Source: Planifilum fulgidum
GTDB lineage: Bacteria > Bacillota > Bacilli > Thermoactinomycetales > DSM-44946
Reading direction: 5' to 3'
Assembly: GCF_900113175.1 (NCBI RefSeq)
Contig: NZ_FOOK01000029.1
Span: 1-45,030 of the forward strand
Length of the DNA: 45,030 nt
In this document: positions 33,845-38,170 of the stretch, piece by piece
Layout of the letters: each line of letters starts with the position of its first letter
Position numbering within the stretch: position 1 is the first letter of the stretch
Notes under the pieces: model-generated
What the model saw: only the letters and a program-made list of their open reading frames with translations
Database searches by the model: none
Told to the model about the DNA's origin: nothing
Position numbers and translations under genes: made by a program

Positions 33845-34897
33845 TCAAACCCATTCATCCCCCAGGGGGAGCGAGAGCTGTTCATACGCCGGTTCCGACC
33901 GCTTTGCAAAATTGGAAAAACCCACCCCGACCAGGCGGATGCCGGGGGAGTAGTCGAAGGCGTCCAGCAATTCCTCCAGGATCTTCGACCAGTCGGGGAA
34001 AGGTTCGCGGACCGTCCGCTGTTTGGAATGGACGGTGAAATCGGCGTATTTGATTTTCAGCGTCAGGGTGCGCGGGGACTCTTCATCCGACAGCTGATTC
34101 CGCACTTTCTCCAGCAAACGCCTCGCGACCCGGGCCACCGATTCCCGGTCATACAGGTTTTCGGGCAGGGTGGTCTCGCGGGAGTGGGATTTGCGCGGGC
34201 GGTTGGGAACGATTTCCCGATCGTCTTTTCCCCGGGCCCGGTAGTACAGATCGTAGCCGGACTTGCCGAACATCCGGACCACTTTTTCCAGGGGCAATCG
34301 CCAGAAATCGCGGACCGTGTGGATGCCCATTTGTTTCAGTCGTTCCTGGGATTTTTTTCCGATTCCGTGCAGCGCCCCGATTGGCAGATCCTTCAAAATG
34401 TGCAAAGCCTGCTCCGGCCGAATGATCACGAAGGCATTCGGCTTTTTCAAATCGCTGGCAATCTTGGCCATCGATTTGTTGTAGGAAAGGCCGATGCTGC
34501 AGGTGAGTCCCGTTTCGGCCCGGACCCTTTCTTTCAGTTCCCGGGCGACCGGCACGGCGTCGGGATAATGGGAGACGTCCAGATAGGCTTCATCCAACCC
34601 CACGGTTTCCACGATGTCGCTGTACCGGGTGAAGATGCGGCGGACTTCCCGGGATTTTTCCCGGTACCGTTCATGCCGCACCGGCAAAAAAATCCCGTGG
34701 GGGCACAACTTGCGGGCCATCGCCATGGGCATGGCCGACCGCACGCCAAAGGCGCGGGCTTCGTAACTGCAGGTGGACACCACGCCGCGCTTTCCCGTGC
34801 CGCCGACGATCACCGGTTTTCCCCGCAACGCTGGATTATCCAGCTGTTCCACGCTGGCGAAAAAGGCGTCGAGATCCAGATGAATGATCTTCTTCAC
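33845..34897 (-). CDS. dinB: DNA polymerase IV (Y family)
   Basis: This 350-residue translesion polymerase opens KKIIHLDLDAFFASVEQ (catalytic Asp8) and carries the second metal-binding pair in VGLDEAYLD (about 102-104). The helix-hairpin-helix stretch GIGKKSQERLKQMGI lies mid-protein. The C-terminus ends QLSLPLGDEWV, a clear beta-clamp-binding motif. Length is normal. The start is a GTG at 34897, which overlaps the stop of the TetR gene (GTGA), so dinB is the last gene of the MBL-tetR-dinB operon. No SOS box was found near it; control probably comes from the shared TetR-regulated promoter. Confidence 0.95.
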   Translation of the reverse strand: MKKIIHLDLDAFFASVEQLDNPALRGKPVIVGGTGKRGVVSTCSYEARAFGVRSAMPMAMARKLCPHGIFLPVRHERYREKSREVRRIFTRYSDIVETVGLDEAYLDVSHYPDAVPVARELKERVRAETGLTCSIGLSYNKSMAKIASDLKKPNAFVIIRPEQALHILKDLPIGALHGIGKKSQERLKQMGIHTVRDFWRLPLEKVVRMFGKSGYDLYYRARGKDDREIVPNRPRKSHSRETTLPENLYDRESVARVARRLLEKVRNQLSDEESPRTLTLKIKYADFTVHSKQRTVREPFPDWSKILEELLDAFDYSPGIRLVGVGFSNFAKRSEPAYEQLSLPLGDEWV

Positions 34898-35556
34898 CGC
34901 GATTCACCTTCGCCCAAACCTTCCTTCCCACCCTGATTATGGGATGAAAACGGGGGAGATGCAACCGACGGTTCCGCCGGATGACCGTGCCGTTTCATCC
35001 CGCGGATTCCCGCAAGGAACGTGTCGATCATCAGGCGAAGACTTTGGTCGGGGTTCAGGGGAAGGCCAAACCCCCCCTTTTGTTCCAGGGAAGCGAAGCC
35101 GTGCAGCAGGCTGCGCAGACCGCGCACGGTGTGAAGGGCCGCTTCCTTTTCCAGACCGTAGGCGCTCAACACCCGCACGACCAGGTCGGTGATCTCCTTT
35201 CCGGCCCGTTGGACCTCCGGGTCCTTCGGATCGGGGGCGCGAAGGGTCGCTTCGTACAAACCGGGACGGCGTCGGGCGAAGGTTATGTAAGCCTCCCCCA
35301 GCGCCCGCACCGCGTCGTCACCGGACCAGCCCAAGGCCGCGCGGGACAGGGCGTCGTGAAGCTGACGGAGTCCGTAAACGGCCAGTTTTTTCCGAAGATC
35401 CCCGAGCCCGTCCACGTGATTGTACAGGGAGGGGGGACGTATGCTCAGCTTTCTGGAAAGGGAAGCCAGTGTGACCGAATCAAAGCCTCGTTGGTCGGCC
35501 AATTCGGCGGCCGCTCGCAGGACGGCGGGCAAGTCGAGGCCGATGCGAGGGGACAT
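34894..35556 (-). CDS. TetR-family transcriptional regulator
   Basis: This 220-residue dimeric repressor has an N-terminal helix-turn-helix: ADQRGFDSVTLASLSRKLSI followed by RPPSLYNHVDGLGDL (about 17-52). The all-helical ligand domain includes VRGLRSLLHGFASLEQKGGF, a pattern of the TetR C-terminal 33/WHG type. The ATG at 35556 has an excellent AAGGAGG; the longer frame lacks one. It starts 13 bases after the MBL gene and overlaps dinB by four bases. The two identical dyads in front of the operon are its likely operators. The ligand is unknown. Confidence 0.9.
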   Translation of the reverse strand: MSPRIGLDLPAVLRAAAELADQRGFDSVTLASLSRKLSIRPPSLYNHVDGLGDLRKKLAVYGLRQLHDALSRAALGWSGDDAVRALGEAYITFARRRPGLYEATLRAPDPKDPEVQRAGKEITDLVVRVLSAYGLEKEAALHTVRGLRSLLHGFASLEQKGGFGLPLNPDQSLRLMIDTFLAGIRGMKRHGHPAEPSVASPPFSSHNQGGKEGLGEGESR

Positions 35557-35569
35557 TTCCGAACCTCCT

Positions 35570-36250
35570 TCATTGCCGCTCAAGCTTGCGTTCAGCCTCG
35601 GCAAGGGCGCGCTCGATGCTGTCTCCCGGTTGTTTCAGCATGGGTCCGTGACCTGGGGCGAGCAAAGAAGGGCGGTGTTTCCCAAGTTTCTTCGCGCTTT
35701 CCAGCGCGGTCCGCTGATGCCAGGTGGCCAAGGCGGGAAAGGGAAACCCCGGACGCAGCTGTCCGGCCACCGCGATCCCGCCCTTCGTCTGAAAGGCATC
35801 CCCGGCGATCAGGGCGCCGCTTCCCGTGTCGAGAAAGGCCATCGAACCCGGCGTATGGCCCGGTGCGGACAAGGCGAGGAGCGTTCCGATCCGGTCTTCC
35901 TCCCGGAGGAGAATGTCCGCCCGCGTCTTCAGCTTTTTGGGGACGCTGCCGCGGATCGGGGAAGCCGGTTCCCCCGGATCCGGGGAGAGATCTCCGGCTA
36001 AAAGACGCGAATCCCGTTTCGAGATGAAGACGGGAACATCGGGGAGCGCCTGTTTGAGGGCGTCAAGGGCGCCTGTGTGATCGGAATGGGCATGGGTCAG
36101 AACGATCCGGACGATCGGTTTCCCGATCGCGCCGGCCGCCCGCAAAATCCCCTTGGCGCTGCGGGAAAGCGCCGCGTCAACCAGTGTCAAACCGTCCTCT
36201 TCCTCCACCAGGTAACAGTTGACGGGAAAGACGCGGGGCAGGAACTTCAC
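35570..36250 (-). CDS. MBL-fold metallo-hydrolase
   Basis: This 226-residue protein has the metallo-beta-lactamase fold. The zinc motif HAHSDH (His53, His55, Asp57, His58) is followed by APGHTPGSM (third metal His), GALIAGDAFQ (bridging Asp) and APGHGPM (last His). All five ligand groups of the glyoxalase II-like family are present. No signal peptide is seen. The GTG at 36250 is the only good start in frame, but its ribosome binding site is distant (AAAGGGG at about 36272-36278), so expression may be weak or start differently. It heads the operon with tetR and dinB. The substrate is unknown. Confidence 0.88.
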   Translation of the reverse strand: MKFLPRVFPVNCYLVEEEDGLTLVDAALSRSAKGILRAAGAIGKPIVRIVLTHAHSDHTGALDALKQALPDVPVFISKRDSRLLAGDLSPDPGEPASPIRGSVPKKLKTRADILLREEDRIGTLLALSAPGHTPGSMAFLDTGSGALIAGDAFQTKGGIAVAGQLRPGFPFPALATWHQRTALESAKKLGKHRPSLLAPGHGPMLKQPGDSIERALAEAERKLERQ

Positions 36251-36280
36251 GGATGATTCGCACGGGCATATCCCCTTTAA

Positions 36281-36326
36281 CTAATGATATTAGCTTTATA
36301 TTAACTAATATCATTAGTTTTTGCAA
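36281..36326 (-). promoter_or_regulatory. Promoter with two TetR-type operators
   Basis: On the minus strand TTGCAA (36321-36326) and TAATAT (36298-36303) are 17 bases apart. Two dyads flank the -10: CTAAT-GAT-ATTAG (36281-36293) and its exact reverse complement (36305-36317). The perfect inverted pair spans 14 bases per arm. Binding of the TetR protein here would block the operon. Confidence 0.85.
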
Positions 36327-36360
36327 ACACCATTTTCCCCCCATCCCCTCGTTTGGTGAA

Positions 36361-36386
36361 ATCAAAGGGCCGCCGCCTGCGGCGAC
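36361..36386 (-). terminator. Probable terminator of namA
   Basis: On the minus strand GTCGCCG, CAGG, CGGCGGC (with one wobble) is followed by CCCTTTGATTT. The T tract is poor. Confidence 0.5.
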
Positions 36387-36424
36387 GACCCGTCGAAAGA
36401 AAGCGATTTGGCCATCGGGTGTCT

Positions 36425-37583: not shown

Positions 37584-37660
37584 TTGACACGGAAAAGGGC
37601 GGTTTTTTATAATCAACATCGTTAATGATATTTTTAACCTTGTTAACGTTAATAACTCTG
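37584..37660 (+). promoter_or_regulatory. Consensus promoter and putative operators of the efflux operon
   Basis: A perfect TTGACA (37584-37589) and a perfect TATAAT (37608-37613) are 18 bases apart. Downstream lie GTTAATGATATTTTTAAC (37621-37638) and GTTAACGTTAATAAC (37644-37658), with repeated GTTAA/TTAAC halves where a MarR/GbsR-type dimer could sit and repress. Confidence 0.75.
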
Positions 37661-37687: not shown

Positions 37688-38170
37688 TTGGAGGATATCA
37701 AGAACCGGCTCGGCGAAGAGATCGCCCGCTCCTTCAAGTGGAGCGGGAACAGTCCGCTGAACGGGCATTTGTTTTCTCTGCTCCTGTTCTCCGAAAAGCC
37801 GCTCGGCTTGCAGGAAATGGCCGACGAGCTGGGAGTGACCAAGGCGGCGGTCAGCGTGCGCATCCGCGCCTTGGAGAGGCTCGGCCTGTGCGAAAAGGTC
37901 TCCCGCCTGGGAGATCGGAGGGACTTCTATCAGTTGGCGGAGGATGCCGGCCTGGTCTCGATCCGGATCAGTCTGGCGGCGCTGCGCCATATCTCATCGT
38001 TTTTGGAAGACCTTCTCGCGGATTTTCCTACCGACTATCCCGAGGAAGAGAGGGCGGCTTTTGAGACGGCCAAACGGCGCCTGGTGGAAATGAAGGCGCT
38101 GCATGATCTTTGCCTTGAGCGGCTGGACGGACTTGATGAAGAATGGGAGAAAAGGAAAAAATCCCTTTGA
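37688..38170 (+). CDS. GbsR/MarR-like transcriptional regulator
   Basis: This is a 160-residue winged-helix protein. The DNA-binding part (about 22-85) contains LGLQEMADELGVTKAAVSVR and IRALERLGLCEKVSRLGDRR, with the conserved wing arginine pair. The C-terminal helices (85-160) are the dimerisation region of the GbsR type. The start is a TTG at 37688. The nearest ribosome binding site (GAAGGA) is about 17 bases away, so the start is the least certain part. It lies upstream of the RND exporter in the same direction, and probably represses it. Confidence 0.85.
   Translation: MEDIKNRLGEEIARSFKWSGNSPLNGHLFSLLLFSEKPLGLQEMADELGVTKAAVSVRIRALERLGLCEKVSRLGDRRDFYQLAEDAGLVSIRISLAALRHISSFLEDLLADFPTDYPEEERAAFETAKRRLVEMKALHDLCLERLDGLDEEWEKRKKSL

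Follow-up and report, generated by a model that had tools for sequence, protein, structure and literature searches.

Our analysis of a 45,030-nucleotide stretch of the Planifilum fulgidum genome (the window) indicates that a two-gene module, consisting of an MBL-fold hydrolase gene (MBL) and tetR, was very probably placed in front of a dinB that is autonomous, an event confined to this lineage, and that the resulting three-gene "operon" looks like a chance, lineage-specific neighbourhood. The original prediction had placed dinB in a TetR-controlled operon, in which a sensor of small molecules would switch DNA polymerase IV together with the hydrolase and independent of SOS. ORF calls and a pattern search confirm its description of the locus: MBL, tetR and dinB follow each other in that order on the minus strand, the GTG of dinB (34897-34895) and the TGA of tetR (34896-34894) share a 4-nt overlap, and two identical CTAAT-N3-ATTAG dyads are present (Table 1). 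Concerning the regulation, a predicted TetR repressor with a conserved double operator at MBL stands, whereas the membership of dinB in the operon is unsupported.

Table 1. Position of genes and predicted regulatory features at the MBL-tetR-dinB locus (numbering of the window).
Feature	Position	Strand	Basis
dinB, DNA polymerase IV, 350 aa	33845..34897	-	ORF call, Pfam/NCBIfam, orthologues
tetR, TetR-family repressor, 220 aa, TetR_N + TetR_C_33	34894..35556	-	ORF call, Pfam
MBL-fold hydrolase ORF body, 226 aa from GTG 36250	35570..36250	-	ORF call, Pfam/NCBIfam, comparison with 67 relatives
Predicted MBL-tetR promoter: -35 TTGCAA (36326-36321), 17-bp spacer, -10 TAATAT (36303-36298)	36298..36326	-	read from sequence
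Putative operator 1, CTAATGATATTAG, inside the -35/-10 spacer (17 bp) of the MBL promoter	36305..36317	-	pattern search; same arrangement in relatives
Putative operator 2, CTAATATCATTAG, directly downstream of the MBL -10	36281..36293	-	pattern search; relatives
TetR residues 196-220, translated dinB promoter/leader DNA, outside the TetR family	34897..34971	-	congener match, family C-termini
Predicted dinB promoter inside the tetR ORF: -35 TTGCAT (34964-34959), 17-bp spacer, -10 CATAAT (34941-34936)	34936..34964	-	conservation
Relict LexA-like box GGAAGGAAGGTTTG, where order-mates have RGAATRTATGTTTG	34915..34928	-	alignment, matrix score
Segment absent from the congener (22 bp there vs 1,391 bp): MBL, most of tetR, promoter, operators	34968..36358		locus alignment
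Terminator-like hairpin 3' of the upstream NamA-type NADPH dehydrogenase gene	36367..36391	-	scan; similar hairpin in congener

Pfam and NCBIfam scans name the dinB product as IMS/DNA polymerase IV, with the IMS palm/fingers and C-terminal domains and with equivalog scores above the cut-offs (NF010731, 385.7 bits, cut-off 362; NF002677, 378.6 bits, cut-off 256). TetR combines a helix-turn-helix (PF00440, 24.4 bits, cut-off 24) with a ligand-binding C-terminal domain (PF13305, 105 bits), and the MBL product belongs to the Lactamase_B family. Only 13 nt separate MBL from tetR, and the terminator scan detected no terminator-like site at the tetR-dinB junction. Further along the window, the plus strand carries a perfect TTGACA-18-TATAAT promoter (37584-37613) upstream of a MarR-family gene (37688-38170), which is weakly CudC-like.

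For the comparison of gene neighbourhoods we used 72 usable tetR relatives, drawn from 42 genomes of the order and a large genome collection, and examined flanks of 1.5 kb for loci from the order and of up to 5 kb elsewhere, which suffices for adjacency. MBL lies directly upstream of tetR in 63 of these relatives and nearby in another arrangement in four, all from Paenibacillus, and was not found within these flanks in five. In the four Paenibacillus loci (L066, L068, L070, L072) MBL is located downstream of tetR and retains CTAAT-N3-ATTAG-like sites of its own; in three of them, another long ORF lies between both genes. At least one exact CTAAT-N3-ATTAG occurs no more than 250 nt upstream of 58 of the 67 MBL genes, and two sites with up to two mismatches are found at 64 of the 67, in most cases at a distance of 21-25 bp and on either side of the -10. 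The window locus shares these features, as MBL adjoins tetR on the same strand and two sites are located at the MBL promoter. Judged by sequence conservation, TetR, operator and MBL form a conserved and widespread two-gene module, and no paper on it was among the ten best matches of our literature search.

In contrast to this stable pair, the position of dinB is not conserved: it adjoins tetR in none of the 72 relatives, and the dinB of the congener has neither MBL nor tetR beside it, so that the three-gene order was not recovered outside the window. At one locus (L050), a dinB starts 4.9 kb away. The gene third in line differs among relatives and encodes a DUF2568 protein in a handful; with its position directly 3' of tetR (L035, L039, L049, L057, L065), this gene (PF10823) might be counted as a third component of the module. 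The module tree is poorly resolved around the window and does not name a donor, and it places order-mates in several separate positions, a scatter consistent with horizontal spread. As part of the best explanation, we regard the module as mobile or at least frequently relocated.

The two dyads in the window are reverse complements of each other, hence identical as double-stranded sites, and far exceed the chance expectation for the window (0.01). A pattern search of the whole 3.38-Mb genome found CTAAT-N3-ATTAG only twice, both at the MBL promoter, and the sites consequently point to no obvious target besides the module. According to the original prediction, the dyads frame a promoter shared with dinB. 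The dyads are real, but the promoter is that of MBL and dinB has its own; besides, they flank the -10 rather than the promoter, with one site inside the -35/-10 spacer and the other downstream of the -10. This layout recurs in relatives such as L041, L037 and L021. Since no further operator-like sites were detected near dinB when the window was searched with up to two mismatches, direct TetR control of the dinB promoter itself is unlikely. Control of the MBL gene by TetR via the double operator is well supported by these sequence comparisons, and we infer that TetR binds both sites, thereby covering the MBL promoter and auto-repressing the module, and that a small ligand presumably releases the protein and induces hydrolase and TetR together. 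Such an arrangement resembles the second group of TetR-family regulators, which are co-transcribed with a neighbour at a separation of at most 35 bp (PMC3511530): MBL and tetR, on one strand and 13 nt apart, fall within this rule, and repression of their own operon would follow the same pattern. The distance rule also holds for dinB, but here the linkage is unconserved and the gene has its own promoter.

Within the window, the module is altered at both ends. Relative to more than 60 relatives, the 5' end of MBL has lost 20 nt in a frameshifting deletion just past the ancestral start (region 36240-36270). The N-terminus in the 67 relatives compared reads MRxxRExxxYQLTFLPR or close to it, and the window protein does not have the intact form MRxxxxxxxYQLTFLPR: the ancestral GTG 36263 with its AGGGG ribosome site begins MRIIRE, after which 20 nt are missing before FLPR. 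The body of MBL is out of frame with this start and open only from GTG 36250, where no Shine-Dalgarno sequence is present. On this sequence evidence, the window MBL is a damaged or re-started member of the module, and little or no hydrolase may be made. At the other end, TetR orthologues stop mostly at ~187-200 aa, whereas the 220-aa window protein continues for 25-30 codons beyond the usual end near residue 190. The deletion, the second start without a Shine-Dalgarno sequence and the extended C-terminus would all fit a module in decay, with the original MBL start unused and the TetR stop lost, so that switch and coupling alike would be non-functional. We consider this a real possibility but not the favoured one, as no other break interrupts the MBL body or tetR, the hydrolase retains its zinc-site motif THAHSDH and both operators match the dyad exactly. 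Module damage was also seen outside the window, namely a frameshift near the N-terminus of MBL in Fictibacillus gelatini and a tetR split in two frames in genome G005 (L038, L025/L030).

The extended TetR tail is also visible in comparison with the closest solved relative, the TetR-family regulator PDB 1zk8: residues 1-185 match the whole 183-residue chain (E 7.6e-60), and the window protein has ~30 more residues, most of which are read from the dinB promoter region. Our literature search found no paper on the function of 1zk8. Polyubiquitin matches of TetR in the PDB search were sums of weak repeats and were put aside as chance.

The origin of this tail becomes apparent from the congener locus, with the within-genus comparison resting on one good congener genome (G001). 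The locus is syntenic, with 4.8 kb and 1.8 kb at 90-92% nucleotide identity on the two sides, and the amino-acid identity amounts to 93% for dinB and 96% for the NamA-type gene. TetR residues 196-220 are matched at 80% identity in G001, which has the same frame and TGA even though it contains no tetR. The tetR/dinB stop-start overlap thus exists because the tetR frame, devoid of its usual stop, runs through the dinB promoter to a TGA that lies there by chance, which leaves the predicted promoter within the last tetR codons; on this reading of the alignments, the overlap is accidental, despite its look of translational coupling. The simplest history would be that the module inserted in front of a dinB that was already autonomous. 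Alternatively, the state of G001 could be the deletion of an older insertion rather than the pre-insertion state, so that the genus ancestor already had the module and the arrangement dates back further than it appears. The shared TGA/GTG frame at dinB and the 25 codons matching the TetR tail would fit such a loss; however, these codons are dinB promoter DNA, which also exists in diverged form in order-mates without tetR, the removal would have to match the module exactly, and tetR adjoins dinB nowhere else in the order, which together make an ancestral module unlikely.

We also aligned the DNA upstream of dinB for the window, the congener and ten order-mates. The predicted dinB promoter is kept in the congener (L012) and most order-mates (L096-L105), the latter without tetR upstream. 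Its order-wide form is TTGAAT/TTGCAT-17-CATAAT in most cases, and the box GAATRTATGTTTG and a shared leader come after it; most order-mates combine a CATAAT, GATAAT or TATAAT -10 with a TTG -35 and have the box at a constant distance from the start. Measured against the consensus, the window -35 (TTGCAT) is weak, and a simple promoter scan missed it. Based on this conservation, dinB appears to be an independent gene with its own predicted promoter, from which, as we infer, it is mainly transcribed.

The box downstream of this promoter relates dinB to the SOS response. The LexA consensus of B. subtilis is CGAAC-N4-GTTCG (PMC9578287), and the recA boxes of the group read CGAATAAATGTTCG. With a LexA matrix built from recA, paralogue and canonical sites, nine of the ten order-mates score between 4.5 and 14.1 at dinB, values reached by only the best 0.3-1.2% of background stretches. 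The box in the window scores 0.1, a value equalled by 8% of random 85-nt stretches and thus too low for a recognisable LexA box, and the congener, where the box has disappeared, scores -9.3; a canonical LexA box was not found at the window dinB. Across nine genomes, the exact 13-mer GAATGTATGTTTG was found at five positions, of which four are at dinB and one is in a prophage-like switch region. This last site (L127, G038:C14:212365-212377) is located at a promoter that separates repressor-like from phage-like genes; an integrase is also present, and the site is probably an SOS-linked prophage switch. The dinB genes of the order-mates hence resemble LexA/SOS-controlled Y-family polymerases of the DinB type, while the alignments suggest that the genus probably lost SOS control of dinB, with or without tetR. 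The original prediction named two findings that would contradict it. One, a lack of operon conservation, is what we observe; the other, an SOS box at a promoter belonging to dinB itself, applies by half, as we find a conserved promoter next to a box that is LexA-like in relatives but eroded in the window. Independence from SOS may therefore hold, but for a different reason, as the erosion is common to the congener without tetR.

A second Y-family polymerase gene of the genome (L014, G000:C2:28182-29201) has a strong LexA box, GAACACTTGTTCG, at -36. In B. subtilis, the chromosomal Y-family polymerases YqjH and YqjW are constitutive and SOS-inducible, respectively (PMC3901139). The window genome likewise has two such polymerases, one probably under SOS control and one probably not, a likeness that concerns the regulatory pairing only and equates neither of them with YqjH or YqjW.

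Even if dinB is an autonomous gene behind a newly joined module, no terminator separates tetR from dinB, and transcription begun at the MBL promoter can therefore continue into dinB. Such read-through under TetR control is thus possible as a derived arrangement, and it is the one route by which the predicted operon might yet be realised in this species. That it amounts to species-specific rewiring, adding a ligand-inducible input to a dinB with lost SOS control, seems rather improbable to us, and our literature search found no paper describing control of dinB by a TetR protein. A working operon of all three genes, with dinB and the hydrolase both switched by TetR and its ligand and independent of SOS, is very unlikely, for although the genes share a strand, a 4-nt overlap and a junction without terminator, and the LexA box is too poor to rely on, the gene order recurs in none of the 72 relatives and is absent in the congener, dinB retains a conserved promoter, the overlap stems from tetR reading on through this promoter, and MBL is frameshifted past its ancestral start.

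Taken together, the locus cautions that neighbouring genes need not form an operon just because they lie on one strand and the stop of one tightly overlaps the start of the next. It also reveals a dinB SOS box that is conserved across an order and lost in one genus, and an MBL-TetR module that is widespread, seemingly uncharacterised and equipped with a clean operator. If the read-through should indeed rewire dinB, a recent evolutionary accident would couple a chemical signal to mutagenesis in this species.
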